Virus record (IMG/VR): IMGVR_UViG_3300025543_000268
Span: 1-21,176 of that record
Source: a virus
DNA length: 21,176 bases
Direction: 5' to 3' (one strand)
In this document: piece by piece, positions 1,344 through 21,001 of the stretch
How the letters are laid out: each line of letters opens with the position of its first letter
Position numbering within the stretch: position 1 is the first letter of the stretch
Position numbers and translations under genes: made by a program
The notes under the pieces: model-generated
Told to the model about the DNA's origin: nothing
Seen by the model: the letters and a program-made list of their open reading frames with translations, nothing else
Database searches by the model: none

Positions 1344-1784
1344 ATGGCAATAACATCAGCAGTATGTAACAGTTTTAAAACAGAAGTTTTACAAGGCATA
1401 CATAATTTTACAGCATCGTCTGGAAACACATTTAATTTAGCTCTATACACAAGTAGCGCTACTTTAAATAAATCAACTACAGCTTATAGTTCATCAAACG
1501 AAATTTCTAACACGGCAGGTTCAGCTTATTCTGCAAAAGGAAAAGCACTAACAAGTGTAACTCCTGCTTTATCTACTGATACAGCTTGTTGTGATTTTGC
1601 AGATGTTTCTTGGACATCAGCTTCGTTTACAGCTAACGGTTGTTTAATATTTAATGATTCAGCATCAGGTGATCCAGCAGTTTGTGCAATCGCATTTGGT
1701 GGAGACAAAACAGTTTCTTCTGGAACATTTACAATTCAATTTCCTACAGCAGACGCATCTAACGCAATTCTTCGGATAGCATAA
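1344..1784 (+). CDS. Conserved small virion structural protein of marine phages
   Basis: The product is 146 aa. It belongs to a recognisable family of marine-phage structural proteins that start MAITSAVCxSFK and continue with FNLALYTSSATLNKSTTAYS, then KGKALTS, CCDFADVSWTSASFTANGC and a closing FTIQFPTADASNAILRIA. The alternating polar/hydrophobic pattern predicts a small all-beta domain and there is no signal peptide or membrane segment. It is usually found between adaptor or tail genes and fibre genes, as here, so a decoration or tail-accessory role is plausible; the biochemical role is not established. A Shine-Dalgarno element (TTAGGAG) precedes the ATG. Its stop codon lies inside the hairpin that covers the start of the next gene. 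Confidence 0.7.
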   Translation: MAITSAVCNSFKTEVLQGIHNFTASSGNTFNLALYTSSATLNKSTTAYSSSNEISNTAGSAYSAKGKALTSVTPALSTDTACCDFADVSWTSASFTANGCLIFNDSASGDPAVCAIAFGGDKTVSSGTFTIQFPTADASNAILRIA

Positions 1785-1800
1785 GGAGGGACTCCTTATG
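1780..1800 (+). promoter_or_regulatory. Perfect inverted repeat over stop codon, Shine-Dalgarno and start codon
   Basis: The arms CATAAGGAG (1780-1788) and CTCCTTATG (1792-1800) are perfect complements around a GGA loop. The stem therefore contains the TAA stop of the upstream gene (1782-1784), most of the AAGGAGG ribosome binding site and the complete ATG of the next gene (1798-1800). In RNA this would hide the initiation region unless a ribosome finishing the upstream gene melts it, a standard design for translational coupling. The structure is read directly from the bases; the regulatory effect is inferred. Confidence 0.6.
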
Positions 1801-2835
1801 GCATCTATCTGGGGTGGTGATAGTCCTTCAGTAGCGTGGAACGAAAATTCCTGGGCATCTAATACTGTTACAATTACTTTAACTGGTGTATCAGCAACCT
1901 CTAGTGTAGGTGAAGTAGCTGCATTTCCTGAACAAGGTTGGGGTAGACAACAATATGGCAACTCTGGTTGGGGTGTAGAATATTCTGTTGCACCAGCAGG
2001 CGTAAGTGCAACCTCTAGTGTTGGAAGTGTTACAGCTTCTCAAGTTATTACTGCAGAATTAACTGGTTTAAGCACAACGTCTTCAGTAGGATCACCAATT
2101 ACTGATCAACTTACTATAGCAGCACTAACAGGATTACAATCACAAACAGAACTTGGAAGTTTTGATAACGCAGGTACTTTAGTTGGTTGGGGTAGAAATG
2201 GTTGGGGTGAAGAACCTTACGGAGATTCATTTAATAAATTAGAACAACCTGCTGGATTAAGTGCAACATCTAGTGTTGGTGCATTAACTTTAGATTTAAC
2301 ATCGGTAATATCTCCAACAGGAGTTAGCGCAACAACTAATGTTGGTTCTTTAAGTTTTGTTATAGATTCTACACCTGTTATAACAGGTGTTAGTGCAACA
2401 TCTACTGTGGGAAGTATTTCTCCTGCGGATGTCGTGGGACTGACTGGAGTGAGTGCAACATCTAGTGTGGGATCTACTACAATAGAAACAGCTTATGACT
2501 TAACAGGAGTCAGTGCAACTTCATCAATAGGATCGATTGAAATAAATTCTTCACCTATTGTACTTCCAACTGGAGTAAGTGCAACTTCATCAGTAGGATC
2601 AATATCTCTTGCAGCTATGCAAGTAGGTTTAACCGGACTAAGTTCAACAGCTTCAACAGGTGCTATTTCTCCTACAGAAATGTTAATAGGATTAACTGGC
2701 TTAGAACTTGAAGCTAGTGTTGGTACAGGAGTAGCTTTTCCTGGTACCTATGAAAAATTAACGCCTAAAACTAGTACAGGATATACAGCACAAAGTCCTA
2801 AAACAAGTACAGGATACACAATTAAAACAGCATAA
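1798..2835 (+). CDS. Repeat-rich virion protein with (L/P)TGVSATSSVGS units
   Basis: This 345-aa protein is built almost entirely of repeats. The central Gly of a (L/P)(T/A)G(V/L)SATSSVG unit occurs near residues 30, 68, 90, 112, 153, 175, 197, 217, 237, 259, 280 and 301, giving about 12 copies with a 20-22 residue period. Two larger steps (30 to 68 and 112 to 153) hold Trp-Gly-rich blocks, GWGRQQYGNSGWG and GWGRNGWGEEPYGDS. The C-terminus carries a second short duplication, PKTSTGYT, twice. Such short Ser/Thr/Val/Gly repeats suggest an extended beta structure, for example a fibre shaft or particle decoration. There is no enzyme motif. The start is fixed by a strong AAGGAGG site that lies in a hairpin with the ATG. 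Confidence 0.68.
   Translation: MASIWGGDSPSVAWNENSWASNTVTITLTGVSATSSVGEVAAFPEQGWGRQQYGNSGWGVEYSVAPAGVSATSSVGSVTASQVITAELTGLSTTSSVGSPITDQLTIAALTGLQSQTELGSFDNAGTLVGWGRNGWGEEPYGDSFNKLEQPAGLSATSSVGALTLDLTSVISPTGVSATTNVGSLSFVIDSTPVITGVSATSTVGSISPADVVGLTGVSATSSVGSTTIETAYDLTGVSATSSIGSIEINSSPIVLPTGVSATSSVGSISLAAMQVGLTGLSSTASTGAISPTEMLIGLTGLELEASVGTGVAFPGTYEKLTPKTSTGYTAQSPKTSTGYTIKTA
1879..2730 (+). repeat. Tandem coding repeat, about 12 units of about 63 bases
   Basis: This stretch encodes the repeated (L/P)TGVSATSSVGS segment. At DNA level the units share cores such as GGTGTTAGTGCAACATCTAG with mainly synonymous changes. Unit spacing is 60-66 bases, except for two steps of about 115-125 bases where a Trp-Gly block is present. 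The repeats stay in frame. They look like protein evolution by duplication and are not a CRISPR or a replication origin. Confidence 0.65.
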
Positions 2836-2841
2836 TTATGT

Positions 2842-2870
2842 TTGACTTAAAACTAAATAAACAATATAAA
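2842..2870 (+). promoter_or_regulatory. Candidate sigma70-type promoter before the tail-fibre gene
   Basis: TTGACT at 2842-2847 is separated by exactly 17 bases from TATAAA at 2865-2870. This is five of six matches to each consensus hexamer at the optimal spacing. It lies in the 59-base gap at 2836-2894, one of the longest gaps in the window. A start near 2877 would leave a short leader with the AAGGAA ribosome site ahead of the ATG at 2895. The A+T-rich background makes TATAAA cheap, but the paired -35 is less likely by chance. No experimental support is available. Confidence 0.5.
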
Positions 2871-2894
2871 TAACAAAAATAAGGAATATAAATA

Positions 2895-3581
2895 ATGGCT
2901 TCAACATACACAGATCTTGGTATAGAACTAATGGCAACTGGTGAAAACGCCGGTACATGGGGAACAAAAACTAACGCAAATTTAAATCTTATAGAACAAT
3001 TAACAGGTGGCTTTGCTACTGTATCTATTGCTGGTGGAGCAGGAACAACTCCTTTAGATGTTGATAATGGTGCTTTAACAGGTACGGCTCAATCAAGAGT
3101 TATAGAATTTACAGGATCAATAACTGGAAATAGAATTGTTACAATTCCAAATGATGTAGAAACTTTTTACATATTAAAAAATTCTACTTCTGGAGCTTAC
3201 ACAGTTCAATTTAAATATGCTACTGGTTCAGGAACAAGCACAACTTTTTCAACTACAGATAAAGGAATTAAAATTGTTTATGCAACAGCTAATGATGGAA
3301 CTAATCCTGACATTGTAGATGTTATGGCTAATTCTTCAGAAATTGCCGTAACTAATAGTAATCCAATAAAATTTAAAGATGCTGATGACTCAGCATCTGT
3401 AGGTATAAAAGCACCTGCAACAGTTAGTGGTTCTTATACTTTAACACTACCAGCAGCTGTAGGATCTACTTCTCAAGCTTTAGTAACAACAGATGGTTCT
3501 GGAACTTTAGGGTTTACATCAACATCAACTTTTGGTATATCAACAGGAAAATCTATTGTAATGGCAATGATTTTCGGTTAA
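2895..3581 (+). CDS. Tail-fibre-like protein
   Basis: The product is 228 aa and starts with MASTYTDLGIELMATGENAG followed by TWGTKTNANLNLIEQ (residues 21-35). I recognise this N-terminus as common to many tail-fibre-like proteins of marine phages; it probably attaches the fibre to the tail. The rest is beta-rich, with repeated GxxTxxxP turns such as ITGNRIVTIPNDVETF and GSYTLTLPAAVGSTSQALVTTDGSGTLGF. The latter resembles a phage-fibre repeat domain. The hydrophobic C-terminus, GKSIVMAMIFG, is also typical. It probably takes part in host recognition together with the glycine-rich protein at 4549. A candidate promoter and an AAGGAA ribosome site lie upstream. Confidence 0.72.
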   Translation: MASTYTDLGIELMATGENAGTWGTKTNANLNLIEQLTGGFATVSIAGGAGTTPLDVDNGALTGTAQSRVIEFTGSITGNRIVTIPNDVETFYILKNSTSGAYTVQFKYATGSGTSTTFSTTDKGIKIVYATANDGTNPDIVDVMANSSEIAVTNSNPIKFKDADDSASVGIKAPATVSGSYTLTLPAAVGSTSQALVTTDGSGTLGFTSTSTFGISTGKSIVMAMIFG

Positions 3582-3605
3582 AAGAAACACAGAGGAATAT
3601 AAAAT

Positions 3606-3971
3606 ATGTCAGCACCAAATTTAGCAAATGTTTCAACAATAACAGCAAAGTCTGCTCAAGCAGCATTAACCACTACTTTAACAACTGAAGTTTTAGCAAA
3701 CGCTGGTTCTTCAGGAAAAGTTTTCAAAGTAAATAACATTATCGTAGCAAATATAGATGGTTCATCAGCCGTAAATATATCTGTCTTTATAACTAAATCA
3801 GGTGGCTCACCAATTGCAATTGCAAGCACAATATCATGTCCTGCGGATGCAACTTTAGTAGTCGTAGATAAAAATACTGCTTTGTATTTAGAAGAAGGCG
3901 ACAATATTGAAGCTGGAGCAAGTGCAAACTCAGATGCAACTATCACTATAAACTACGAGGAATTAAGTTAA
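3606..3971 (+). CDS. Small beta-sandwich structural protein
   Basis: This 121-aa protein contains a run of alternating hydrophobic strands: KVFKVNNIIVANIDG (residues 38-52), AVNISVFITKSGG, LVVVDKNTALYLEEGDNIEAGA and ATITINYEEL at the end. The pattern of strands and the Glu/Gly-rich turn before the final strand resemble the 111-aa product at 12691 (LIVEGGKAFTVQAS, then FDVAISYLNI), so the two may share a fold, although identity is low. No catalytic motif, signal peptide or membrane span is visible. It lies between a fibre-like gene and another virion gene, so a tail or particle accessory role is likely. A GAGG ribosome site precedes the ATG. Confidence 0.62.
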   Translation: MSAPNLANVSTITAKSAQAALTTTLTTEVLANAGSSGKVFKVNNIIVANIDGSSAVNISVFITKSGGSPIAIASTISCPADATLVVVDKNTALYLEEGDNIEAGASANSDATITINYEELS

Positions 3972-3986
3972 GGAGGGTCATAATTT

Positions 3987-4538
3987 ATGGCACACTTTGC
4001 TGAATGTAGGGTAGATAATAACGAAGTAATCAGAGTTATTGTTGTATCAGATCAAGACGTTGCTAATAACGGTGGTAACAATTCAACTCAAACAGAACAA
4101 TGGGTTAAAGATAATATTCCCCAAGGTATTAGATTAAAAGCTGCGTATGAAGCTGCAGGAGAAACTTATCCAGATACTTTTTGGAAGCAAACTTATAAAA
4201 CTTCTGAGAGAGGTATATACGCTGGACCTGGTTGTCTATGGAATTCTACTCATAACATTTTTACAGATAAACAAACATACCCAAGTTGGATATTAAACAC
4301 TACATCAGGATTACATGAAGCACCTATTGCAGCTCCATCTGGGGATATTCAAAACTATAGATTAACTGACGATTTAGATGACAATGGAGATAGAATTGGA
4401 ATTTTTGACTTTTATGCACCAGAGTGGAATGAAAGTTTAACAAATTGGATTTGTAAAAAAAATCCACTTTCTGAAAACAAAATGAGAAGATGGGAAGAAT
4501 CAAGTTCTTCTTTTCTTCCAGAAGAAGATATAGTATAA
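3987..4538 (+). CDS. Marine-phage virion protein of the MAHFAE / WKQT type
   Basis: The protein is 183 aa. It starts MAHFAECRVDNNEVIRVIVV and carries WKQTYKT (66-72), YAGPGCLW (78-85) and PSWIL (99-103). This series is recognisable from a structural protein family common in cyanophages and other marine phages, where the motifs read approximately WKQTSYNT, YAGIGYTYD and PSW. The C-terminal part (about 115-183) is polar, with a Trp-rich WNESLTNWICKKN segment and an acidic end. Family members occur in tail-fibre or baseplate gene groups and their exact function is unknown. A strong AAGGAGGG ribosome site starts at the end of the preceding gene. Confidence 0.65.
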   Translation: MAHFAECRVDNNEVIRVIVVSDQDVANNGGNNSTQTEQWVKDNIPQGIRLKAAYEAAGETYPDTFWKQTYKTSERGIYAGPGCLWNSTHNIFTDKQTYPSWILNTTSGLHEAPIAAPSGDIQNYRLTDDLDDNGDRIGIFDFYAPEWNESLTNWICKKNPLSENKMRRWEESSSSFLPEEDIV

Positions 4539-4548
4539 GGAGATTATT

Positions 4549-5511
4549 ATGGCAAATGGCGGAATTATAGGACCAATTAATGAACCAACAACAGGAGATG
4601 TAATAACACCTTTTTCATCACCTGGAACTTTTGTAGCTAAAAAAACACAAAACGTAGGTTTATTAGTTGTAGCTGGTGGCGGCGGTGGAGGTCACAGAAC
4701 TCAAGCAAACGGAAGTGCTGGAGGCGGCGGAGGTGTTAGATTACTTCCAGCTCACCCAGTGACTGCAGGACAACCTGTATCTGTTACAATTGGAGCAGGA
4801 GGAACAGGACTTAGCTTAAATGGTCAACCTTTTGCAACTGGTCAAGGAGATGATAGTTCTTTTGGACCTATCAGTGCTACTGGAGGTGGTTCTGGTATGG
4901 GACAAGGTCTAGGTGGTCAACCTAATTTTCCTAATACAAATAGTTTAGATGGTGGAGCTGGCGGAGGTTCTGCTTCTTCTCCAGAAAATCCATACACTGG
5001 TAATGGTAATGCTGGAGGTTTTTCACCACCAGAAGGAAGTGATGGTGGAGCAACCAACTCTTCATCTATACCTGGCGGCGGTGGTGGAGCTGGAAGCGCA
5101 GGCGGCACTGGAACGGGATCTGGCGCTGGAGGTGGCGGTGGTAACATAGATCCTTCACCAGTATTTGGAAGCGCACCTCAACCTTATTATTGGGGTCCAA
5201 ACGGAAGATATGGAGGCGGCGGCGGAGGCGGCTGTAGACCTGATAATGGAAGTGCTGGAAGTGGTAATGCCGCTGGAGGCGGCGGAAACGGTGGTTCAGG
5301 AAATCCTAGTGGACCTGGCCAACCAGGTGTAGATGGTTCAGGCGGCGGTGGTGGCGGCGCTGGAGAACAAGGAGCAGTAGGCGCACAAGCTGGAAGTGGC
5401 GGTGATGGAACTGTTATTGTTAAAGAAGTTGATGTTGTTACAGGAGCTTCAGGAGTTTGGACTATGCAAGACGTATTCGCAAATCAAAAAGCAGGTACCT
5501 GGACTAACTAG
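4549..5511 (+). CDS. Glycine-rich tail adhesin / receptor-binding candidate
   Basis: The product is 320 aa, of which residues about 43-288 are dominated by poly-Gly runs (GGGGGG, SAGGGGGV, GAGGGG) separated by short polar loops. The N-terminus has a TFVAKKTQNVGLLVVAGGGG strand and residues 286-293 form a GTVIVKEV strand. It closes with GVWTMQDVFANQKAGTW, a C-terminal pattern I associate with glycine-rich phage proteins. The family resembles adhesins built of packed polyglycine helices, such as the tip adhesin of Salmonella phage S16, whose loops contact the receptor. Four Pro-Gly sites are present (P25, P175, P256, P259), including a collagen-like GPGQPGVDG stretch. The next gene encodes a prolyl-hydroxylase-like enzyme. 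Many Gly codons are GGC/GGT, which raises local G+C. Confidence 0.66.
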   Translation: MANGGIIGPINEPTTGDVITPFSSPGTFVAKKTQNVGLLVVAGGGGGGHRTQANGSAGGGGGVRLLPAHPVTAGQPVSVTIGAGGTGLSLNGQPFATGQGDDSSFGPISATGGGSGMGQGLGGQPNFPNTNSLDGGAGGGSASSPENPYTGNGNAGGFSPPEGSDGGATNSSSIPGGGGGAGSAGGTGTGSGAGGGGGNIDPSPVFGSAPQPYYWGPNGRYGGGGGGGCRPDNGSAGSGNAAGGGGNGGSGNPSGPGQPGVDGSGGGGGGAGEQGAVGAQAGSGGDGTVIVKEVDVVTGASGVWTMQDVFANQKAGTWTN

Positions 5512-5530
5512 ACTTTTATTTTAATTAATA

Positions 5531-5536
5531 TATAAA
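5531..5536 (+). promoter_or_regulatory. Candidate -10 element at the head of the oxygenase cassette
   Basis: TATAAA lies 10 bases before the ATG at 5547. A partial -35, TAGACT (5509-5514), is 16 bases upstream. Transcription would begin near 5543, leaving only about four bases before the ATG. The region before the ATG (CTCTCTAGA) has no Shine-Dalgarno sequence, so a leaderless or nearly leaderless message is possible. A+T-rich sequence produces such hexamers by chance. Confidence 0.3.
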
Positions 5537-5546
5537 ACTCTCTAGA

Positions 5547-6173
5547 ATGAATATAGAGAATAGTTATTGGTATTTTAGGGATGTTATTCCAAAAAATATT
5601 TGTGATGATATAATTAAATTTGGACTTCAACAAAATAAAGAAAAAGCTATTATTGGTGATGCAAAACTCAACGATAAAATTAGAAAATCTAATGTAGCTT
5701 GGTTAGATGAAAAATGGATTTATAATGAAATCCATCCTTATATTTTAAGAGCAAATGAAAACGCTAGGTGGAATTACGATTTAAATTGTAGTGAACATTG
5801 TCAGTTTACTATTTATGATCCAGGACAATATTATGATTGGCACGTAGATGCTTGGACTTTACCTTATTTACCACGAAATCAAAAAACTAGAAATAATGAA
5901 AAAAGTGCACCATTTGACGATGTAGTAGGTTTAATAAGAAAAGTTTCTGTTACTGTCTGTTTAAATGATTACACAGAATATCAAGGAGGAGAACTAGAAA
6001 TAGCTATGGACGGCCCTCCACATTTACCTAAAAAAGTTCACGATTTAAGAAACATAGCTTCTAAAGGAACTGTAATTGTGTTTCCTTCTTTTGTCTGGCA
6101 TAGAGTAAAACCCGTGACTTCAGGCACAAGATATAGTTTGGTAATTTGGACAGATGGAAAGCCATATAGATAA
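5547..6173 (+). CDS. 2-oxoglutarate/Fe(II) dioxygenase, prolyl 4-hydroxylase-like (HxD)
   Basis: This 208-aa protein is about the size of a single double-stranded beta-helix dioxygenase. The iron triad is visible: H99 and D101 in YYDWHVDAW, and H185 in VFPSFVWHRVKPV. R195 (GTRYSLVIW), ten residues later, is the expected 2-oxoglutarate carboxylate binder. VSVTVCLNDYTEYQGGELEI gives the CLN...GGEL core strand of the prolyl 4-hydroxylase/PKHD group. The enzyme should couple oxidative decarboxylation of 2-oxoglutarate to hydroxylation of a protein or other substrate. It is the first of seven related genes and sits just after the glycine-rich adhesin. All key residues are present, so it is probably active. 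Confidence 0.86.
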   Translation: MNIENSYWYFRDVIPKNICDDIIKFGLQQNKEKAIIGDAKLNDKIRKSNVAWLDEKWIYNEIHPYILRANENARWNYDLNCSEHCQFTIYDPGQYYDWHVDAWTLPYLPRNQKTRNNEKSAPFDDVVGLIRKVSVTVCLNDYTEYQGGELEIAMDGPPHLPKKVHDLRNIASKGTVIVFPSFVWHRVKPVTSGTRYSLVIWTDGKPYR

Positions 6174-6664
6174 TGGATTACGAAATAAAAAATAATTTTT
6201 TACCTAAAGAAAATTTAGATATGTTAAAAAAAGAAATATTTAGTAATTATTTTCCGTGGTATTTTCAAGATGAAGTAAATATACATCACAAAAATCACGA
6301 AGAAGATTTAAGTTATTACATGACACATAATGTATTTAATAACAACGTTGCAAGTCAGTATTGGAACTTATTTACAAAAAATTTATTATCTTTCATACCA
6401 TCCACTAAGGTTATAAGAATTAAAGTAAATTTATATCCTAGAACAGAAAAGATAATTAAAAATAAAATACACGTAGATTATCCCTACAAACACAAAGCAG
6501 CTTTGCTTTCTTTAAACACATGTGATGGTTTTACTTCATTTGAAAACAAACAAATTAATTCTGTAGAAAACAGAGTTTTATTTTTTGAAGGACATAAGGA
6601 ACACGCCAGTTCAACTTGTACAAATGTTAAAGCAAGATTTAATATAAATATAAACTACAAATAA
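6173..6664 (+). CDS. 2-oxoglutarate/Fe(II) dioxygenase-like protein (HxD), compact form
   Basis: The product is 163 aa. The candidate iron ligands are H100 and D102 (NKIHVDYPY) and H144 (or H141) in FFEGHKEHASS. R155 in KARFNINI is the likely 2OG-binding residue. The N-terminal FLPKENLDMLKKEI and FPWYFQDEVN segments are typical of a group of small phage dioxygenases that begin with a FLP...FPWY pattern. The gene overlaps the previous stop by one base (TAATG), so it is probably translated by re-initiation. Base composition is extremely A+T-rich (8 G/C of 60 in 6181-6240 by hand count), unlike the gene before it. The substrate is unknown. Confidence 0.75.
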   Translation: MDYEIKNNFLPKENLDMLKKEIFSNYFPWYFQDEVNIHHKNHEEDLSYYMTHNVFNNNVASQYWNLFTKNLLSFIPSTKVIRIKVNLYPRTEKIIKNKIHVDYPYKHKAALLSLNTCDGFTSFENKQINSVENRVLFFEGHKEHASSTCTNVKARFNININYK

Positions 6665-7224
6665 TGGAAACTTTTATAAAATCATACAATTTAAAAAATA
6701 TAGATTTATGTGATAAATTTATAGAGTATCATAAAAATAACTTTGAGTACAAAGGTGAGGGACACACGTATGGGGGGTTGGATAAAAAAATTAAAAATTC
6801 AATAGATGTTACTTTTTTTAATAATAACAAAAACCTTTTTATACAAGAATATTTTGCGGAAATATCTGTATTTATAAATGATTACATGAATTATTATGGC
6901 ATAGGGGGATATTTAAGAACTAATGAAGAAGGAACTAATATTCAATATTATCCTTCTAAAGAAGGTGGTTTTTTTCAATACCATTATGAAAGAGGGTCTA
7001 TGCAAGATGTCAATAGACAAGTTGTTTTTATGACATACTTAAATGATATAGAGGAGGGAGGAGAAACAGAATTTCTTTTTCAAAAAATTAAAGTAAAACC
7101 AAAAAAAGGTTTAACTGTTTTATGGCCTTCTGATTTTACTCACACTCACAAGGGGTTACCTTGTAATTTTGAAAAATGGATTGTGACAGGCTGGTTCTGT
7201 CATCGCATAGAAAAAAATGATTAA
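6664..7224 (+). CDS. 2-oxoglutarate/Fe(II) dioxygenase-like protein with HxE motif
   Basis: This 186-aa protein has a prolyl-hydroxylase-like core: FFQYHYERGS with H107 and E109, RQVVFMTYLNDIEEGGETEF (residues 118-137), and KPKKGLTVLWPSDFTHTHKG with H160 or H162 as the distal ligand. K171 in FEKWIVTGWF occupies the place of the usual 2OG-binding Arg. The order of strands and the YLND...GGETEF and WP..FTH.H.G signatures are clear. The HxE pair replaces the usual HxD; Glu is known to serve in some dioxygenases and is replaced in related halogenases by a small residue, which is not the case here. It is translationally coupled by a TAATG overlap. Confidence 0.82.
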   Translation: METFIKSYNLKNIDLCDKFIEYHKNNFEYKGEGHTYGGLDKKIKNSIDVTFFNNNKNLFIQEYFAEISVFINDYMNYYGIGGYLRTNEEGTNIQYYPSKEGGFFQYHYERGSMQDVNRQVVFMTYLNDIEEGGETEFLFQKIKVKPKKGLTVLWPSDFTHTHKGLPCNFEKWIVTGWFCHRIEKND

Positions 7225-7684
7225 TTTTACTATTTCATACATTGATAAAAAAGTTAATAATAATATTAAAAACTTTATATATAAAGAAAAAGATAAATGG
7301 GCAAAAAAATTAAATTCAGTAGAAGCAAGGACTTCGGGATTTAATCCAAGCTATCGTTTTTTTAAAATATTAGAAAAAGACATCTGTGAAAATTTGTTTA
7401 GAATTACTAATAAAAAATGGGCAATGAAATGTTATTGGATTAACTTTTATGAAAAAGGAGATCATGCAAAACTGCATGATCATAGAAAAGATGCTATAAG
7501 TTCTGTATTAATAATTAAAGCTTCTAAATATAATCCCTTGATTTTTTATGATTTAAATAATAAATTGATCCCAATACCTGAAAGAGATGGAATGTTAGTA
7601 TTATTTAATTCACAAACACCACACAGTGTTATGAAATGTAAAGAAAAAAGAATAACAATAGCCATGGATTTTAAAGAATTATGA
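7217..7684 (+). CDS. Putative 2OG/Fe(II) dioxygenase-fold protein with HxH motif, short
   Basis: The product is 155 aa. KGDHAKLHDHRKD holds H87 and H89, followed by a hydrophobic SSVLIIK strand. The distal part reads MLVLFNSQTPHSVMKC with H136, then KRITIAMDF with R145, nine residues on. The arrangement (HxH, a strand, a LFxxxxPH turn, an Arg strand) fits the 2OG-FeII_Oxy_5-like families, here in a reduced form without a clear SGVYY segment. Because the third candidate ligand is His and not Asp/Glu, activity is less certain than for the HxD genes. It overlaps the previous gene by 8 bases. The DNA coding for the HxH motif is itself an inverted repeat (7460-7481). Confidence 0.62.
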   Translation: MINFTISYIDKKVNNNIKNFIYKEKDKWAKKLNSVEARTSGFNPSYRFFKILEKDICENLFRITNKKWAMKCYWINFYEKGDHAKLHDHRKDAISSVLIIKASKYNPLIFYDLNNKLIPIPERDGMLVLFNSQTPHSVMKCKEKRITIAMDFKEL

Positions 7685-8268
7685 AGGTAGAAAATTTAAA
7701 TTTATTTGCAGAACCTATATTAAAATATAAATTTAATTTAGACTGTGACGAAATATTAGATGTTTTAAAAAACTTAACATATGTTCCTATCGAAGGCAAA
7801 GATTGTTTAAGAAGTTCTGATTGTAAATCATTGTTAGATCAAATACCTAATTTAAAAAAAAGTGTTATGCAAGCTTGTGATGATTGGTTAAATGATAAAA
7901 TGAAATTAAATGTAGAATTTAAAATTATTGAAACTTGGGCCACTAAAACTAAAACAGGGGGGTATTCATCAATGCATAAACATTCTCATTGTATTTTAAG
8001 TGGTGTTTTTTATTTAAAAGATAGTAATCAAATAAAAATACATAAACCATATGAAAGTGATTTTTGGAATATAGAACCCACGGAATATAATCAATACAAC
8101 TCTTTATCTTATTATATTGAAAGTAATAAAAATGAAATGATTCTTTTTCCTAATTATATCTATCATCAAATAAACAAATATCATGGAAAAGAAGATAGAT
8201 ACTCAATAGCTTTTAATGTACTACCTAAAGGGGACTTGAGTGGTCCAACATCAAAGGTAACACTATGA
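7681..8268 (+). CDS. 2OG/Fe(II) dioxygenase-like protein, 2OG-FeII_Oxy_5 type (HxH)
   Basis: This 195-aa protein shows the pattern of the family known as 2OG-FeII_Oxy_5 (PF13759). It has an N-terminal LFAEPILKYKF segment (residues 8-18), TWATKTKTGGYSSMHKHSH with H99 and H101, then the LSGVFYLK strand (106-113). ILFPNYIYHQI carries H162 and EDRYSIAFNVLPKG carries R173, eleven residues later. The FN..P.G ending is also typical. The family is common in marine phages; its substrates are, to my knowledge, not established. It starts within the previous stop (ATGA). Confidence 0.78.
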   Translation: MKVENLNLFAEPILKYKFNLDCDEILDVLKNLTYVPIEGKDCLRSSDCKSLLDQIPNLKKSVMQACDDWLNDKMKLNVEFKIIETWATKTKTGGYSSMHKHSHCILSGVFYLKDSNQIKIHKPYESDFWNIEPTEYNQYNSLSYYIESNKNEMILFPNYIYHQINKYHGKEDRYSIAFNVLPKGDLSGPTSKVTL

Positions 8269-8858
8269 CACATTTCACTATGTTTTCTACACCCGTTTTT
8301 ATAAAAGACGTTATAGATACAGATTCTGAAAAAGAAGCTTTAATAAAATTAGCTTACAAAATGAAATCTAGAGAACCTTCTCAAGAAAAAACAAATGTAG
8401 GAGGTTATCAAACTGGGGCGATGCATAAATCTACTGAATTCTTAAACCTGATAGCCAAACTACAACAAAACATAAATGAAAATTTAAATACTTATGCATT
8501 TGATCAAAAATTAGAAATTAAAGTTAGAAATGCTTGGATAAATATAAATAATAAAGATGCTTTTAATAGACCACATGTTCACCCTAGTTCAGAGTTTGCA
8601 TGTATTTTTTATTTAAAGATTCCAGAAAATTCTGGTAATGTTGTTTTCATAAAAGACTCTATGTATAGAATGGACGGCATATGTGATTTACCTGCTAAAG
8701 AGTCTAACATATTAAATTGTCTAAGCTTTTTTATAAAACCAGAAGAAAATAGATTTGTGATGTTTCCTTCATATGTTGAACATTTTGTAGAAGAAAACAA
8801 ATCAACAGAGGACAGAATTAGTTTATCATTTAACTTGTCTGTAACGCCAAAACAATGA
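8265..8858 (+). CDS. 2OG/Fe(II) dioxygenase-like protein, 2OG-FeII_Oxy_5 type (HxH)
   Basis: The protein is 197 aa and is built like the preceding one: an N-terminal MFSTPVFIKDV segment, RNAWININNKDAFNRPHVHP with H104 and H106, then FACIFYLKIPENSGNVVFIKD (111-131). FVMFPSYVEHFV carries H173 and EDRISLSFNLSV carries R184. The PENSGNVVF strand is a strong family signature, clearer than in the gene before it. Despite the common fold the two products differ along most of their length, so they are old paralogues or separate acquisitions and not a recent duplication. It is coupled through ATGA to both neighbours. Confidence 0.8.
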   Translation: MTHFTMFSTPVFIKDVIDTDSEKEALIKLAYKMKSREPSQEKTNVGGYQTGAMHKSTEFLNLIAKLQQNINENLNTYAFDQKLEIKVRNAWININNKDAFNRPHVHPSSEFACIFYLKIPENSGNVVFIKDSMYRMDGICDLPAKESNILNCLSFFIKPEENRFVMFPSYVEHFVEENKSTEDRISLSFNLSVTPKQ

Positions 8859-9451
8859 CCTTTAAAATAAACAATTATTCTATTATAAAAAATGCAGTTA
8901 GTTCAGAAATAGCTAACTTTGCCTATGAATATCTATTACTAAAAAGACAAGTCTGTAAAACTTTGTTGGACACAACTTATATATCTCCTTTTAACAAATA
9001 CTTTGGAGAATGGGAGGATTCTCAGGTTCCTAATACTTATTCTATATATGGCGATGTTGCGATGGAAACATTGCTTATGAAAGTAAAACCTTTGATGGAA
9101 AAAGAAACAGGCTTAAATTTAATTCCTACTTATGCTTATGCTAGAGTATACAAAAGAGGAGATGTTTTAAAAAAACATATAGACAGACCTAGTTGTAAAA
9201 TATCTACTACAATGAATTTAGGAGGTGAAAAATGGCCTATATATTTAAAAACAGACAAAGTTGTTAAAATAGAATTATCTCCTGGAGATATGTTGATATA
9301 TTCTGGATGTGAGTTAGAACACTGGCGAGAACCGTTTGAAGGTGAAAATTGTGGTCAAGTTTTCTTACATTATAACGATATAGACACACAAGGAACTGAA
9401 AATAGATTTGATAAGAGGCTTCACCTTGGTCTTCCTTTTGATGTTAAATAA
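8855..9451 (+). CDS. 2OG/Fe(II) dioxygenase-like protein (HxD, possible non-Arg 2OG site)
   Basis: This 198-aa protein has an N-terminal INNYSIIKNAVS entry. ARVYKRGDVLKKHIDRPSCK carries H108 and D110. STTMNLGGEKWPIYL forms the core strand. LSPGDMLIYSGCELEHWREPFEG gives H156 as the distal ligand. In the strand that normally presents the 2OG-binding Arg or Lys (CGQVFLHYND) a Gln is found near residue 168, with R158 as another candidate. I recall this CELEHWREPF...QVFLHYN pattern from other phage dioxygenases, so the change is probably a family trait. It is the last gene of the cassette, ending 17 bases before the nozzle-like gene. Confidence 0.78.
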   Translation: MTFKINNYSIIKNAVSSEIANFAYEYLLLKRQVCKTLLDTTYISPFNKYFGEWEDSQVPNTYSIYGDVAMETLLMKVKPLMEKETGLNLIPTYAYARVYKRGDVLKKHIDRPSCKISTTMNLGGEKWPIYLKTDKVVKIELSPGDMLIYSGCELEHWREPFEGENCGQVFLHYNDIDTQGTENRFDKRLHLGLPFDVK

Positions 9452-9460
9452 TGTTATAGT
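9452..9460 (+). promoter_or_regulatory. Candidate extended -10 element before the nozzle-like gene
   Basis: TGTTATAGT (TG at 9452-9453, TATAGT at 9455-9460) resembles an extended -10 promoter. No good -35 is seen at 16-18 bases. The ATG at 9469 lies eight bases after the hexamer, and TTAGCCGCT has no Shine-Dalgarno sequence, so a message starting near 9467 would be leaderless. This parallels the arrangement at 5531-5547. It is only a sequence match. Confidence 0.3.
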
Positions 9461-9468
9461 TAGCCGCT

Positions 9469-11688
9469 ATGCTACAAAAACTAGGTTTTTTACCAGGATT
9501 CAATAAACAAGTTACATCTACCGGAGCTGAGTCACAATGGACAGGCGGTCAAAATGTGCGTTTTAGATATGGCACACCTGAAAAAATAGGTGGCTGGAAC
9601 CAATTAGGTGCTTCTAAATTAACAGGTGCAGCTCGAGGTTTGCATCATATGGTTAATAAATCAGGTATTAAATATGCAGCTATTGGAACTAATAGAATAT
9701 TGTATGTTTATTCTGGACAAGTATATTATGACATTCATCCTTTAGTCAATCCATTAGGCACAGCCATTACAAATGCATTTAGCACAAGCAATGGGCAACC
9801 CGATGTGACTATTACGTTTGGTGGTGCACATAGTTTTCAAGCTGGCGACATTATTTTGTTTGGTGACACAACTACATTTAGCGCTATTACAGGATCTAAT
9901 TTTGGTGCTTCAGATTTTTGTGATAAAAAATTTATGGTAACATCTGTGCCAAGTGCTACTACTATAACTATTACAATGCCAAGTAATGAAAGTGGAGCCG
10001 GAGCCACAACTTCTGGAGGCATAACTTACTTTCAATATTATCATGTAGGACCACCTGATCAAGTTGGAGTTTTTGGATGGGGTATATCTCAATATGGAGG
10101 AACATCTACTGCTCCTCAAACAACAACTTTAAATGGTGCATTATTAAATGACGCTAATGGTACTGGTGGATCAGGAACTAGTATTACTCTAACATCCACA
10201 CTCAATTTTCCAACAACAGGAACAAATTTTATTCAAGTGGGTACTGAAGAAATTTCTTACACCGGTGTATCTGGAAATGATCTAACAGGTATTACAAGAG
10301 CCGTTCGAGGAACAACCAGAGCAGCTCATAGCAATGGTGCTGTTGTAACCGATTACAGTGATTATTCTGGTTGGGGTCAATCATCAGCTAACACAGACAC
10401 TGTTGCTGACCCCGGTATGTGGTCTTTAGATAATTTAGGTAGTACTCTTATCGCTTTAATTTTTAATGGAGAGTGTTTTCAATGGGATGCTGATGCAATA
10501 AATGCAACAGCAACAAGAGCAACTATTATAACTGGTGCTCCGACAGCGTCACGTGATATGCTGGTGTCAACACCGGATCGTCACTTAGTATTTCTTGGAA
10601 CAGAAACAACTATTGGAGATAAAACTACACAAGACGATATGTTTATAAGATTTTCTTCTCAAGAAAATATTAATGATTATGCACCAACAGCTGAAAACAG
10701 TGCTGGTACACAAAGACTGGCCGCCGGATCACGGATCATTGGTGCTAAACTTGGTAGAAATGCAATTTATGTTTGGTCTGATACATCTTTATTTACCATG
10801 CGTTTTGTTGGAACACCTTTTACATTTGCTTTTGAACAAGTAGGTAATAACTGTGGTTTGATTGGTAAGAACGCAGCTGTTGAAGTTGACGGCGCTGCTT
10901 ATTGGATGTCTGATAATGGTTTTTTTAGATACACTGGTAAACTAGAATCAATGGATTGTTTGGTTGAAGATTATGTTTATGACAATCTTAACACCACATC
11001 TAATCAAATGGTTTATGCAGGCATTAACAACTTGTTTGGAGAAGTAATATGGTTTTATCCAGAAGCTAACTCTAATGTTAATACTCAGTCAGTCACATAT
11101 AGTTATCTAGATTCTACTGCTAAACGACCTATATGGTTTGTTAATGCAAGTCCTTTGTTTATTAGAACAACGTGGCAAGATTCTGCTGTTTTTGGTTTAC
11201 CTCATGGAACTCAATATGATGCAGATACAGATACTTCTTTTGACGTAACAGGAAACACTGAAGGAGTTTCATATTACTATGAACATGAAACAGGTGTTAA
11301 TCAAGTAAGACTAGGGGTAACAACAGCCATACCAGCTGATATTACATCTGGAGATTACGACATTACACAAAAAGTTGTAAGAGGGGCTGCAACTAATCTA
11401 GGTGACCTTAGAGGTGATGGTGAAAATATTATGAGAGTTAGTAGGATTATTCCTGATTTTATATCTCAACAAGGAAACGCTGTTATACAATTAGATTTAA
11501 GAAATTATCCTAATGATACAGCAGCAAGTTCATCACTGGGTCCTTTTACTGTAACATCTTCTACCGATAAAGTAGACACACGTGCAAGAGGAAGAGCAAT
11601 AGCTCTTACAATATCAAACACTGCAGTAGATACTAGTTGGAAATTAGGAACTTTTAGGTTAGACATACACGCTGGAGGAAGACGATAA
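9469..11688 (+). CDS. Tail nozzle / hub-like structural protein
   Basis: The product is 739 aa, near the size of podovirus nozzle (T7 gp12-like) or P22 gp10-like hub proteins. The N-terminus reads MLQKLGFLPGFNKQVTSTGA, then QNVRFRYGTPEKIGGWNQL (about 28-46). The NVRFR.G.PEK.GGW pattern is the recognisable signature of these beta-propeller tail proteins. Residues about 218-285 hold an extra module (TTTLNGA, ITLTSTLNFP, EEISYTG, LTGITRAVRGT, HSNGAVV). It is bracketed by GWG motifs and repeats the module found in the first gene of the window. The C-terminal half has SLFTMRFVGTPFTFAFEQVG and AAYWMSDNGFFRYTG, blade-like strands. It should attach to the adaptor (595-1329) and form the tail channel. 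The start has no clear ribosome site. Confidence 0.68.
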   Translation: MLQKLGFLPGFNKQVTSTGAESQWTGGQNVRFRYGTPEKIGGWNQLGASKLTGAARGLHHMVNKSGIKYAAIGTNRILYVYSGQVYYDIHPLVNPLGTAITNAFSTSNGQPDVTITFGGAHSFQAGDIILFGDTTTFSAITGSNFGASDFCDKKFMVTSVPSATTITITMPSNESGAGATTSGGITYFQYYHVGPPDQVGVFGWGISQYGGTSTAPQTTTLNGALLNDANGTGGSGTSITLTSTLNFPTTGTNFIQVGTEEISYTGVSGNDLTGITRAVRGTTRAAHSNGAVVTDYSDYSGWGQSSANTDTVADPGMWSLDNLGSTLIALIFNGECFQWDADAINATATRATIITGAPTASRDMLVSTPDRHLVFLGTETTIGDKTTQDDMFIRFSSQENINDYAPTAENSAGTQRLAAGSRIIGAKLGRNAIYVWSDTSLFTMRFVGTPFTFAFEQVGNNCGLIGKNAAVEVDGAAYWMSDNGFFRYTGKLESMDCLVEDYVYDNLNTTSNQMVYAGINNLFGEVIWFYPEANSNVNTQSVTYSYLDSTAKRPIWFVNASPLFIRTTWQDSAVFGLPHGTQYDADTDTSFDVTGNTEGVSYYYEHETGVNQVRLGVTTAIPADITSGDYDITQKVVRGAATNLGDLRGDGENIMRVSRIIPDFISQQGNAVIQLDLRNYPNDTAASSSLGPFTVTSSTDKVDTRARGRAIALTISNTAVDTSWKLGTFRLDIHAGGRR

Positions 11689-16334: not shown

Positions 16335-19300
16335 ATGGCGTTAAGATCAGGTATTGGAATCACCGAAGAAACAGAAAAACAAAAAAATAAAACTGTTACA
16401 AGAAAAGTACGTGGTAGTGATATCAAAACTACTGAAATTGGTGACACAGAAGTTGGTGGAGTAACATCTGCTGTAGCTGGTGTTGGTTCAGGTATTGTTA
16501 AAACTGTAGAAGGAGTCGTGTCTCTTGGAGCAGAGCTCATGGACCTCGGACTTACAGAAAACGCTGCTGACGAAGTAGAATCTTTTTTTGATACAATAAA
16601 CATTTTTGAAGACACAGCAAACGCTAGAGCGGCTGGTAAAATCACACAAGCATTAGTACAAATAGGTACACCTGCAGCAATAGGTTCTAAGATTGCATTA
16701 AAGCTAGCTAACAAAGCATTACAAGCTAAAAAAACTGGTAAGTATGCTAATGTCATGAGTAAGAATGCTCAAAAAGGAATTAAGAAAGCTAAAGAATTAA
16801 ACAAACTTACAGGTAAAAAAAGATTTGGTGCATTAGTTTTAGGTGGTGCAGCTGGTGAAACATTAGTAGGTGACACTGAAGAGATAGGTTCTTTTGGTGA
16901 TGTGTTTGAAGCAGGACCAACACAATTAGATAGAGAAGTAAGAGAAGATTCATCAGAAGATGCAGTTAGAAAACTTATGAATAGAACTAAGTTTGCATCA
17001 GAGTCTATATTTGTTACACCTTTTGTATATGGTATTGGAACCGGTGCTAAAGCATTAGCTAAAAAAGGAAAAGAATTAGCATATAGTAATTCTAAAATTG
17101 CTAGAGGACTGGATAAATTTGGTGCAATCTTTAGACCTAGATCAAGTAAACCTGAAGAAGTATTTTTATCTAAGATGCAAGAAAACGCACGTAAGATGGC
17201 AGACACTAATTTTTCTATGGAACAAGTAGCAAGGATAGATAAAATAACTAACAAATATTTTCCAGCTACTAAAAAGTTTTTAGATAAGACAGGTGAGTCT
17301 GGAAGAAAAAAGTTTTTAGCTGATCTAGATAAAACTTTATTTAAAGGTGATCTTAACAAAGAAGGTTTAGATAAAACTTTACAAGCATCATTATTAAAAC
17401 AAATGAAAACAGCTGACGTGCCTGTGCCTGATCAATCTATTATATTTAAAGGATTAAAAGACACACGAAATAAGTTTAAAGAACTATTAGAAATTACAGC
17501 TGGTGGACCAGGAGCTAAAGTAGATTTACCTGCAGGTGTTGGAGTGGATCTTAGAGCTTTAATGGGAGATAGAATTAAAAATTACATAGGTAATACTTAC
17601 GCCATGTTTCAAAACAAAGAGGCAGGTTTGTTTAATCAATTTAAACCAGCTGCAAAAGATAAAGAAATGGTGGCTAATATGTTTATGAGATATGCTGCTA
17701 AAAATAAAAATCCTATTAATGACTTTGAAGCAGATCAAATGGTTGATGAATTAATTGCATCTGCCAGAAACATGGATCCTAAAAAAGATACATTACCTAC
17801 GTTTGCATATCAAAACTTAACTAAAAGTGCAGAAGACGCATATAATATCAAAACGTTTGCACAAACATTAACTAAAGAAACAACTGATGGAGACAAAACA
17901 TTGAAGGTTATAGGTAAAGGTAGTAAAAATTTTAGAAAATTATTTGGTGAAGTAGAGGATGTAAGACACTCTATTTACGAAGGAGTTAATAGACTGTCTG
18001 TAGTTGCTAGAAAAAATCAATTGTTTGATGAAATATTAGATACTGATGAGGCTATGAAAGCTGCAACAAAAGCTGACACTCCTCCTGGTCAAAGAGGGTT
18101 TTTTCACTCAACACCACTAGAAGCACGTAGAGCATTTGGTGATATCCCTGGTGATGAGATTGTAAAAATAGATCCTTATGTAAAAGATTATTTTAAAGAT
18201 GGTGTATTAGTAAATAGATTACAAGGTATGTACACAACACGAGCAATAGCTGACGGTTTTTCTAACGTATCAAAAATACAAGAATTTATGAGAGGTGAAA
18301 CTGGTGGTGCGCTTGGTAAAACTTTTTCATGGGCATGGCGTAACTTATTGTTAACACCTAAAGCTGGTGCACAGTATGCTAAAACAATTTTATCTATACC
18401 AACACACATAAGAAACTTTTTAAGTTCTGGTGCATTTGCATTGGGTAATGGTACATTATTTGAAAATCCTCAATTGATGAAAGAAGCCATGCAAAGAGCA
18501 GGAGCAACCATACAAGTTGGAATTAGAAATCCATTGGCTATGGAACGTTACAGAAGATATTTAGAACTTGGTGTAACAAATACAAACACAAGACTTGGTG
18601 ATCTTAGAAACCTAATGAAAGATATTAGATTTGGTGATGGTAATATTGCAACAGACAGTGTGCTTAGACCTATGTTAAATTCTTTAGGAGTTTTAGGTAA
18701 AGGAGTTAAAAAAGGTGCTAAGTTTATGCAAGATGCATATGTAGCTGAAGATGATTTTTGGAAAGTGTTTAATTTTGAAGTAGAGTATGGAAGATTATTT
18801 AAATTAAATAAAGATAAACTATTAAAGATGTCTAATGAACAGATGGAAGAAATGGCAGCTAAAATAGTAAGAAATACTGTACCTAACTATGCGTATGTTG
18901 GTGAATTTGTAAGAGCTGCACGTATGTCACCGTTTGGTAATTTCATGTCATGGCCGTCAGAAGTTTATAGAACTGGTGTAGGTATTGTACAACAAGCATT
19001 AGATGAAATAGCTGATCCTATTACTAAAAGTATTAACCCTGTTACAAGTAAAAATCCTATGAAATCTATAGGAATGAAAAGATTAACTGGAATGACTATG
19101 GCAACATTAGCGCTTCCTTATGGCGCTATTAAAGGATCACAAGCAATCTTTGGTGTATCAAACGAAGAAGCGGATGCGGCTAATGATTTTGTAGCACCTT
19201 GGGCAAGAGACTCACAAAAAATATACATGAGAGATCCAGAAACAGATGAGTTGTATTATATGGATTACAGTAAGAACAATGTTTACGATACACTATCAAG

Positions 19301-20324
19301 ACCTTTTCAAACATTATTAAACAGTATTCAACAAGGTATAGAAGATGAAGAAGTATTATTAAAAGGATTTACTGAAGGTATTGCAAGAGCAGCAGGGCAA
19401 GTAGCAGAACCTTTTGTATCTGAGTCTATGTTTACAGAAGCTTTTATGGATATATGGTCTAGAGGTGGTGTAACAAAAGAAGGTGTAGAATTATATTCTG
19501 AACAGACACCTACTTCCGAAAAATATCAAAGAATATTTAAACACCTTGGTGTAACTTTAATGCCTACAACAAAACCTTTTCAAAGATTAGGAAAAGCACT
19601 TACTGAAACACCTAGTGAAACAGGTGAGTTTTTTGAAGTCAGTAAAGAAATGGCTGGTATCATGGGATGGAGACCTGTTAAAGTTGAACCAGAAAAAGCC
19701 TTGGGTTTTTATATTTATGATTTTCAACGAGGTATATCTAAAGCAAGAAAAGAATTTACTGGTGGACCTGAAGGATTATTAAAAGGTGGACCTAAAACTC
19801 CGCAATCAGTTATTGAAAGATATTTTGTAGCTAACAAAGGTATGTTTGAAGTACAAAAAGAAATGTTAAGACATTTTCAAAACGCACAAAAAATTGGTTT
19901 ATCTAGAAATCAAATTAAAAAATCATTAGAAAAAAGAGGTATACCTGAATCTACTATTGATGATTTATTTAAAGGTAAATTTAAATTCTACTATCCATCA
20001 GAAGATATACAGGAAAGATTTAAAGACATTTCAAGAGAAACAGGAACACCAAATCCTTTCTTACAATCTAAAGGAATTATAAATGGTATGAGAAATGCTT
20101 TTAAAGGTTTAAGTTTATATAGAGATTTCCCAATAGAGCTTAGTGACTTTATGCCACCAAGTGACGCGTATGATGACCAATCTAAAGCACCTCCATTAGG
20201 TAATACACCTATGCCTGCGCAAACTAGCACAAACATAGCACAAAAAAATCCACAAACTAACTTGACACAGACAGAGGAAGCATTACTATCACCAACTGAA
20301 AAGGTAATAGCAAGTAGAACATAA
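16335..20324 (+). CDS. Large internal virion protein, DNA-ejection candidate
   Basis: At 1329 aa this is by far the largest product, matching the size and place of the giant ejection proteins of short-tailed phages (T7 gp16 analogues). The first quarter has several Gly/Ala/Val-rich hydrophobic stretches (about residues 41-70, 164-178 and 225-240) that could insert into a membrane. Long charged helical regions follow. Near residues 920-940 TMATLALPYGAIKGSQAIFG is another such segment. The C-terminal third holds PWARDSQKIYMRDPETDELYYMDYS and FGVSNEEAD, motifs I recognise from uncultured marine phage homologues. The extreme C-terminus reads TQTEEALLSPTEKVIASR, also recurrent. I see no lysozyme or transglycosylase signature, although T7 gp16 has one. 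A GGAG ribosome site precedes the ATG. Confidence 0.66.
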   Translation: MALRSGIGITEETEKQKNKTVTRKVRGSDIKTTEIGDTEVGGVTSAVAGVGSGIVKTVEGVVSLGAELMDLGLTENAADEVESFFDTINIFEDTANARAAGKITQALVQIGTPAAIGSKIALKLANKALQAKKTGKYANVMSKNAQKGIKKAKELNKLTGKKRFGALVLGGAAGETLVGDTEEIGSFGDVFEAGPTQLDREVREDSSEDAVRKLMNRTKFASESIFVTPFVYGIGTGAKALAKKGKELAYSNSKIARGLDKFGAIFRPRSSKPEEVFLSKMQENARKMADTNFSMEQVARIDKITNKYFPATKKFLDKTGESGRKKFLADLDKTLFKGDLNKEGLDKTLQASLLKQMKTADVPVPDQSIIFKGLKDTRNKFKELLEITAGGPGAKVDLPAGVGVDLRALMGDRIKNYIGNTYAMFQNKEAGLFNQFKPAAKDKEMVANMFMRYAAKNKNPINDFEADQMVDELIASARNMDPKKDTLPTFAYQNLTKSAEDAYNIKTFAQTLTKETTDGDKTLKVIGKGSKNFRKLFGEVEDVRHSIYEGVNRLSVVARKNQLFDEILDTDEAMKAATKADTPPGQRGFFHSTPLEARRAFGDIPGDEIVKIDPYVKDYFKDGVLVNRLQGMYTTRAIADGFSNVSKIQEFMRGETGGALGKTFSWAWRNLLLTPKAGAQYAKTILSIPTHIRNFLSSGAFALGNGTLFENPQLMKEAMQRAGATIQVGIRNPLAMERYRRYLELGVTNTNTRLGDLRNLMKDIRFGDGNIATDSVLRPMLNSLGVLGKGVKKGAKFMQDAYVAEDDFWKVFNFEVEYGRLFKLNKDKLLKMSNEQMEEMAAKIVRNTVPNYAYVGEFVRAARMSPFGNFMSWPSEVYRTGVGIVQQALDEIADPITKSINPVTSKNPMKSIGMKRLTGMTMATLALPYGAIKGSQAIFGVSNEEADAANDFVAPWARDSQKIYMRDPETDELYYMDYSKNNVYDTLSRPFQTLLNSIQQGIEDEEVLLKGFTEGIARAAGQVAEPFVSESMFTEAFMDIWSRGGVTKEGVELYSEQTPTSEKYQRIFKHLGVTLMPTTKPFQRLGKALTETPSETGEFFEVSKEMAGIMGWRPVKVEPEKALGFYIYDFQRGISKARKEFTGGPEGLLKGGPKTPQSVIERYFVANKGMFEVQKEMLRHFQNAQKIGLSRNQIKKSLEKRGIPESTIDDLFKGKFKFYYPSEDIQERFKDISRETGTPNPFLQSKGIINGMRNAFKGLSLYRDFPIELSDFMPPSDAYDDQSKAPPLGNTPMPAQTSTNIAQKNPQTNLTQTEEALLSPTEKVIASRT

Positions 20325-20524: not shown

Positions 20525-21001
20525 ATGCAGCTATCGCGAAATTTTTCTCTTCAAGAGCTTATTAAATCAGACACGGCCATACGTAAAGGTATTGATAACA
20601 ATCCTAATGCAGATCAGATTGAAAAGTTAAAAGCATTGTGTGAAAATATATTACAACCCGTTCGGGACCATTTTGGCAGAGTAAAAATTACCAGCGGATA
20701 CCGTTCACCAGAATTATGTACAGCAATCGGCAGCTCTGTAAATTCACAGCACGCTAAAGCTGAGGCCGCAGACTTCGAATGTGTTGGAGTTGACAATGCT
20801 GAACTTGCTGATTGGATTAATAGAGAGCTTTCCTATGATCAATTGATCGTCGAATACTATACGCCAGGCGAACCTAACTCAGGATGGATACATTGTAGTT
20901 GGATCGCGGAGCAACCAAGAGCTAGTTTTTTGTGGGCTTACAAATCTGAAGGTAAGACTAAATATAAACCAATACTAGGTAAAGCAAAAGACCTGGTTTA
21001 A
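20525..21001 (+). CDS. Endolysin, peptidase M15 family (zinc D,D/L,D-type peptidase)
   Basis: The product is 158 aa, a complete single-domain M15 peptidase of the peptidase_M15_3 type. KITSGYRSPELCTAIG (54-69) is the characteristic SGYRS loop. SQHAKAEAADF gives zinc ligands H76 and D83, and GWIHCSW gives H123; E110 in QLIVEYY is a candidate catalytic or structural acid. The enzyme should cleave peptide cross-links of peptidoglycan at lysis. There is no signal peptide, so it needs the holin-like neighbour or another route across the membrane. Hand count gives 131 G/C in 300 bases (20641-20940, 44%), well above neighbouring phage genes, which suggests a different origin. The start has no good Shine-Dalgarno sequence and lies six bases after the previous stop. 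Confidence 0.85.
   Translation: MQLSRNFSLQELIKSDTAIRKGIDNNPNADQIEKLKALCENILQPVRDHFGRVKITSGYRSPELCTAIGSSVNSQHAKAEAADFECVGVDNAELADWINRELSYDQLIVEYYTPGEPNSGWIHCSWIAEQPRASFLWAYKSEGKTKYKPILGKAKDLV

Follow-up and report, generated by a model that had tools for sequence, protein, structure and literature searches.

Between a glycine-rich putative tail adhesin and the tail nozzle gene, the viral DNA analysed here (the window, 21,176 nucleotides in length) carries an array of seven translationally coupled genes for small non-haem iron oxygenases that resemble prolyl hydroxylases, and in this lineage the array has been exchanged between phages as one block together with the adhesin. Because of this joint exchange, the enzymes may chemically decorate the virus particle. 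Few unexplained genes are as common in marine phages as those for 2-oxoglutarate (2OG) oxygenases, which have mostly been interpreted as metabolic helpers; linking them to a tail-adhesin cassette, in relatives of the phages that infect the highly abundant ocean bacteria SAR11, gives them a concrete and testable target. The features concerned are as follows.

3598 to 9467, + strand: exchangeable cassette of a 121-aa protein, a phrog_7759 protein, the Gly-rich adhesin and seven oxygenases, delimited by contig comparison.
3606 to 3971, + strand: the cassette's 121-aa protein, 90-95% to cassette relatives, 40% or unmatched in backbone relatives.
3987 to 4538, + strand: phrog_7759 protein (9e-21), with no assigned function, typically located at the beginning of such arrays or close to it.
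4549 to 5511, + strand: Gly-rich putative tail adhesin (PF21722, 5.9e-11; phrog_2295, 1e-33; Gly at 103 of 320 residues).
5547 to 6173, + strand: oxygenase 1 (g1), HxD...H...R, PKHD-type (PF13640, 2.5e-14; phrog_61; triad in 188/188 relatives).
6173 to 6664, + strand: oxygenase 2 (g2), HxD...H...R (phrog_274, 8e-39; AlphaFold pLDDT 94.3).
6664 to 7224, + strand: oxygenase 3 (g3), HxE...H...K (PF13640, 4.7e-14; triad in 94/94 relatives).
7217 to 7684, + strand: oxygenase 4 (g4), HxH...H...R (PF13759, 2.1e-8; phrog_81, 1.4e-21).
7681 to 8268, + strand: oxygenase 5 (g5), HxH...H...R (PF13759, 5e-17; TIGR02466 above cut-off).
8265 to 8858, + strand: oxygenase 6 (g6), HxH...H...R (PF13759, 2e-20; TIGR02466, 4e-29; solved relatives 3bvc and 2rg4).
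8855 to 9451, + strand: oxygenase-fold protein 7 (g7), HxD...H, with an invariant Gln replacing Arg (phrog_2954, 2e-52; AlphaFold pLDDT 94.7).
9469 to 11688, + strand: tail nozzle/stabilisation protein, the conserved downstream boundary (phrog_3287, 2e-93).

The nozzle protein is 39.9-46% identical to its homologues in HTVC023P, HTVC027P and 023Pt_psg01, which places the window, as far as such similarity tells, with an HTVC023P-related podovirus near the HTVC023P-type pelagiphages; a SAR11 host is probable from these relatives. The seven open reading frames and their overlaps of 1, 1, 8, 4, 4 and 4 bases are exactly as the original prediction had described them, and its description of an oxygenase island within a virion module agrees with the domains, the modelled folds and the site between adhesin and nozzle. 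Pfam domain matches for five products and structure models for the other two assign all seven to the 2OG/Fe(II) double-stranded beta-helix superfamily. Against a curated cut-off of 27 bits, g1 and g3 scored 54.4 and 53.6 bits with PF13640, and g4, g5 and g6 scored 34.9, 62.5 and 73.2 bits with PF13759. For g2 and g7 there were no Pfam matches, PHROG families 274 and 2954 were matched strongly, and a PDB sequence search using their profiles gave no meaningful match. AlphaFold models of these two products, each built with 71 relatives, were compared with the PDB by Foldseek. The g7 model is a double-stranded beta-helix with the Pseudomonas putida prolyl 4-hydroxylase in complex with EF-Tu (4iw3) as best match (7e-10), and the beta-rich g2 model is of the same type, with the Dictyostelium prolyl hydroxylase and human PHD2 as best matches (about 4e-6). 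Structure prediction had been proposed as a check, with the loss of this fold in three or more products as the outcome that would tell against the array; both models were of the double-stranded beta-helix type, and g1 and g3-g6 carry the corresponding Pfam domains.

The PHROG names of g2 and g7, 'DNA endonuclease V' and 'ferrochelatase', look wrong in the light of these models. T4 endonuclease V (DenV) is all-helical, whereas g2 is without a Pfam match, is modelled as a beta-rich prolyl-hydroxylase-like protein and conserves HxD...H...R; g7, likewise without a Pfam match, is modelled as a double-stranded beta-helix resembling prolyl hydroxylases and was rejected as a ferrochelatase. This suggests that two widespread marine-phage annotations are ripe for correction, and with the 'ferrochelatase' correction the published iron/haem argument for partner genes would fall away. 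More broadly, cross-matches to oxygenase-fold proteins were seen for phrog_2954, phrog_3531, phrog_274, phrog_2297 and phrog_1644, families whose names include 'minor coat protein' (DUF6445) and 'DNA endonuclease' besides 'ferrochelatase' and 'DNA endonuclease V'; the fold was modelled for members of phrog_2954 and phrog_274. A role in DNA or nucleotide modification, whether repair or hypermodification, could be read from the deposited names 'DNA endonuclease V' and 'DNA endonuclease', and DNA hypermodification genes are described for HTVC023P-type phages (PMC9599517). The fold, however, contradicts those names, no match to the TET/JBP or AlkB families was found, and the array sits among tail genes, so that we regard such a role as very improbable.

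The active-site residues, checked on relatives, are H99-D101-H185-R195 in g1, H100-D102-H144-R155 in g2, H107-E109-H162-K171 in g3, H87-H89-H136-R145 in g4, H99-H101-H162-R173 in g5, H104-H106-H173-R184 in g6 and H108-D110-H156 in g7, where Gln168 occupies the Arg position. The four motif layouts read earlier from the sequence were thus recovered: HxD-H-R (g1, g2), HxE-H-K (g3), HxH-H-R (g4-g6) and HxD-H with Gln (g7). So was an Arg or Lys in six of the seven genes, which lies 9-11 residues past the distal His in g1-g6. Since the metal-site triad is kept in 998 of 1015 aligned full-length relatives, and the oxygenase profiles gave no matches to reversed open reading frames, the motifs are beyond chance. 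An HxD/E...H iron triad is present in g1, g2, g3 and g7. In prolyl 4-hydroxylase, Glu is reported to be the sole replacement of the Asp that keeps activity (PMC2767507), and by this analogy g3 may plausibly work as a normal enzyme. When a three-His site was engineered into prolyl 4-hydroxylase, activity was lost (PMC2767507); g4-g6 are a natural three-His family, the arrangement being found also in the solved relative 3bvc, and HxH...H is kept in 19/19 relatives of g4, 93/94 of g5 and about 237/245 of g6. In g7 relatives, Gln stands at +12 in 163/163 and Arg or Lys is absent there. Because g4-g6 have a three-His site and g7 is without the usual Arg, the chemistry of g4-g7 is uncertain, and their membership of the fold does not imply ordinary 2OG hydroxylase chemistry.

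Chimeric assembly, raised as a caution with the original prediction, was ruled out, as two independent contigs repeat the array: identity to the window is 99.2% over 1-13769 in L007 and 99.99% over 5700-13331 in L087, which comes from a different metagenome. With g3 set aside for its differing length in the relatives compared (L088 and L089), the other six genes gave dN/dS values of 0.07-0.34 and are, on these estimates, under purifying selection. The GC content of the array genes is 24-31%, against 34-50% in the adjoining structural genes. All-against-all BLAST relates one pair only, g5 and g6, at 26%; tandem duplication as the origin of the array was therefore rejected, and the array is best described as an assembly of distinct families with no recent tandem duplication. 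A promoter scan of 4400-9700 found fewer sites than in shuffled sequence and was uninformative; terminator-like sites in the same interval numbered 5 against 2.0 expected, with none at the array ends.

The original prediction had held a seven-gene run to be unusual, and this did not stand. Among loci fetched by the nozzle gene alone, 29 had at least 7 kb upstream; all 29 hold oxygenase genes between adhesin and nozzle, 3-11 each with a median of 5, and their order is variable, as emerged from the survey of related contigs that had been proposed. Uninterrupted runs of seven to nine occur in 29 of 253 loci, some of them near-copies of each other or of the window, and in the closest relatives (L089-L091, L166, L180) the array numbers eight genes, an additional g6-like one standing between g3 and g4. 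The nozzle gene lies directly 3' of 87 of the 196 arrays that have a same-strand downstream gene. Cultured phages agree: HTVC008M has five oxygenase genes consecutively, in a myovirus neck/baseplate region, and cyanophage S-SM1 (GU071094) has nine oxygenase-fold genes within the 11-gene stretch SSM1_051-061, including a 'denV' and two 'ferrochelatase' genes. The seven-gene run is thus within the normal range for the locus and for cultured marine phages.

S-SM1 resembles the window in that a Gly-rich phrog_2295 protein (3.5e-79) and a phrog_7759 protein (4e-37) precede its array; these two genes lie directly 5' of the 2OG array in both viruses, in varying order. It differs in being a Synechococcus myovirus, with another gene order and two unassigned genes inside the stretch. 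The adhesin-oxygenase module therefore crosses virus families. In the pelagiphages HTVC008M (gp072-068), HTVC023P (gp65-67), HTVC033P and 023Pt_psg01, g1-, g6- and g7-type genes are adjacent or near-adjacent, mostly beside Gly-rich genes, in arrays of three to five genes compared with the window's seven. Clusters of phage oxygenases are already published (PMC9599517, PMC9602691). Eight oxygenase types or auxiliary genes with 'ferrochelatase' partners are reported from HTVC023P-type genomes, the same phage group and gene families as the window; they are called nearby and non-adjacent, and the partner is taken as a ferrochelatase, whereas in the window its counterpart has an oxygenase fold; the sections consulted mention no adhesin cassette (PMC9599517). 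Cyanophage S-SCSM1 has 24 oxygenase genes, many of them, like the window's, members of PF13640 and PF13759 and some with neighbouring ORF numbers, but spread genome-wide and, in the sections consulted, with no link to an adhesin drawn (PMC9602691). What seems to be undescribed is the array as part of an adhesin cassette (phrog_2295, phrog_7759 and oxygenases) common to podoviruses and cyanomyoviruses.

A metabolic role, in which 2OG consumption or a rise in succinate would reprogram the host, has been proposed for cyanophages (PMC3037559), and host iron-uptake genes go up in middle and late HTVC027P infection (PMC12753301). A simple 2OG sink, however, has no need of many distinct conserved active sites, the array is located in a virion module, and the cyanobacterial NtcA argument may not transfer to SAR11; we hold this role to be highly unlikely.

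The limits of the cassette were found by comparing two sets of relatives. From gene 3606 through gene 8855, four contigs (L088, L089, L091, L166) share 83-97% amino-acid identity with the window, a value that drops to about 64% in gene 2895 and 62-67% in the nozzle. Two others (L008/L009) show the opposite pattern, with 92% in the nozzle and 22-47% in the array, and no counterpart matched to genes 3606 or 4549. In DNA, L061 is 98.6% identical over 1649-3597, has short weak matches until 9467, and is alignable again (83%) from 9468, one base ahead of the nozzle start codon. By these comparisons, 3598-9467 was replaced as a unit in the window's lineage, its breakpoints falling at gene borders; the exchanged block takes in the 121-aa and phrog_7759 proteins, the adhesin and all seven oxygenases. 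Co-transfer of array and adhesin is demonstrated for this lineage, with no fine matching of enzyme set to adhesin implied. Indeed, tight co-evolution of oxygenase repertoire and adhesin was rejected: a partial rho of 0.51 in the first analysis vanished in 42 de-duplicated forward-strand arrays (partial rho 0.03, p 0.37), and the overall correlation of 0.39 stems from close relatives and two architectural classes: arrays in forward orientation that follow Gly-rich/phrog_7759 genes, and inverted ones that follow a tail-collar-type module, as in HTVC027P. Nine arrays are inverted (L034, L038, L051, L068, L071, L083, L084, L086 and L171, the last being HTVC027P); in place of phrog_7759 they have a 129-aa protein and a tail-collar-type protein ahead of them.

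The locus could instead be a hot spot that gathers moron-type oxygenases with separate targets, such as host EF-Tu, ribosomal proteins or metabolites, and no common substrate. Array content, order and sometimes strand are scrambled among loci with nozzles more than 80% alike, g5 and g6 are the only recognisable paralogues, g7 has the P. putida hydroxylase-EF-Tu complex as its first-ranked structural match, and the array GC is below that of its flanks. Set against this are the recurrence of the Gly-rich gene upstream across different backbones, the precise co-exchange with the adhesin and the purifying selection, and we judge a hot spot of this kind unlikely.

That recurrence was measured in loci without the nozzle: in 24/32 cases there is a Gly-rich gene no more than two genes upstream of the array, compared with 1/22 downstream and 22/322 background pairs. 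With arrays merged at 75% identity the counts are 8/16 upstream and 1/12 downstream, and at 60% identity the association is weak (3/9 versus 1/10). In the relatives' arrays, oxygenase genes are adjoined by a tryptophan halogenase (PF04820) in 23/25 cases, a sulfotransferase (PF13469/PF00685) in 14/14 and a carbamoyltransferase (PF02543) in 13/23, counts from non-independent contigs whose p-values are nominal; in the window itself none of the three was recognised. Carbamoyltransferases and sulfotransferases of these families frequently act on sugars, and flavin halogenases usually on aromatics. The enzymes might modify receptor glycans or the cell surface of the host at a late stage of infection, for example against re-adsorption of released particles or for phage exclusion. 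The sugar-acting families of the partners (the carbamoyltransferase being 'Nol-like'), the neighbouring adhesin, which makes receptor chemistry pertinent, and the rapid change of array content fit such a role, while the lack of a recognised sugar-acting enzyme in the window, the protein hydroxylases among the nearest solved structures and the aromatic preference of the halogenases speak against it; on balance it appears rather improbable.

Position, fold, co-exchange and partner genes together favour late modification of the tail adhesin over metabolic or DNA roles. Our best explanation, held tentatively and with the substrate deduced from context, is that the array encodes late-expressed tailoring enzymes which would hydroxylate the adhesin. 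Made alongside the tail genes, they would act before assembly, hydroxylating the side chains of the adhesin or of neighbouring tail proteins and giving a chemically varied tip peculiar to each phage lineage; in relatives, this target may receive further groups from the halogenase, sulfotransferase and carbamoyltransferase encoded in these arrays, and a cassette swap would change adhesin and modification jointly. The beta-helix fold, the intact sites, the upstream Gly-rich gene, the gene order in S-SM1, the sharp exchange and the partner genes support this explanation. A protein target is further supported by the nearest solved structures, which include the P. putida hydroxylase with EF-Tu and PHD2. 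The closest solved relatives, 4iw3 for g7 by fold and the PKHD-type hydroxylases PiuC/YbiX for g1 by sequence, differ from the array in being single cellular genes of low identity. A search for prolyl hydroxylation of phage tails found no paper in the literature collection consulted. Adhesin modification is weakened by a repertoire that does not track the adhesin, by the weak Gly-rich association after 60% merging, by the partner enzymes unrecognised in the window, by the non-standard sites of g4-g7, and by four or more distinct enzyme types, which are many for a single target. It is possible, though doubtful, that an exchangeable 'chemical decoration' cassette is common to several families of marine phages. 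Its Gly-rich adhesin would travel with variable hydroxylases, joined in many relatives by halogenases, sulfotransferases and carbamoyltransferases, which would give the receptor-binding tip non-genetic chemical diversity, and the three-His and Arg-less forms would carry out new reactions.

Two further families accompany the oxygenase genes in related contigs. A 168-aa family (L246:5676-6182 and 21 relatives), weakly phrog_81-like, is beside them in 22/22 cases, and a 110-aa family (L020:1375-1707 and 25 relatives), with no Pfam or PHROG match, in 24/26, often just 5' of the nozzle. Elsewhere in the window, 16335-20324 encodes a 1329-aa protein with no PHROG match and a partial match in L008 (22%), the last of a presumed ejection-protein module. 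No holin was recognised near the endolysin-family gene at 20525-21001 (phrog_894, 2e-42), which lies beside phrog_38642 and whose counterpart in 023Pt_psg01 is annotated as a peptidase M15.
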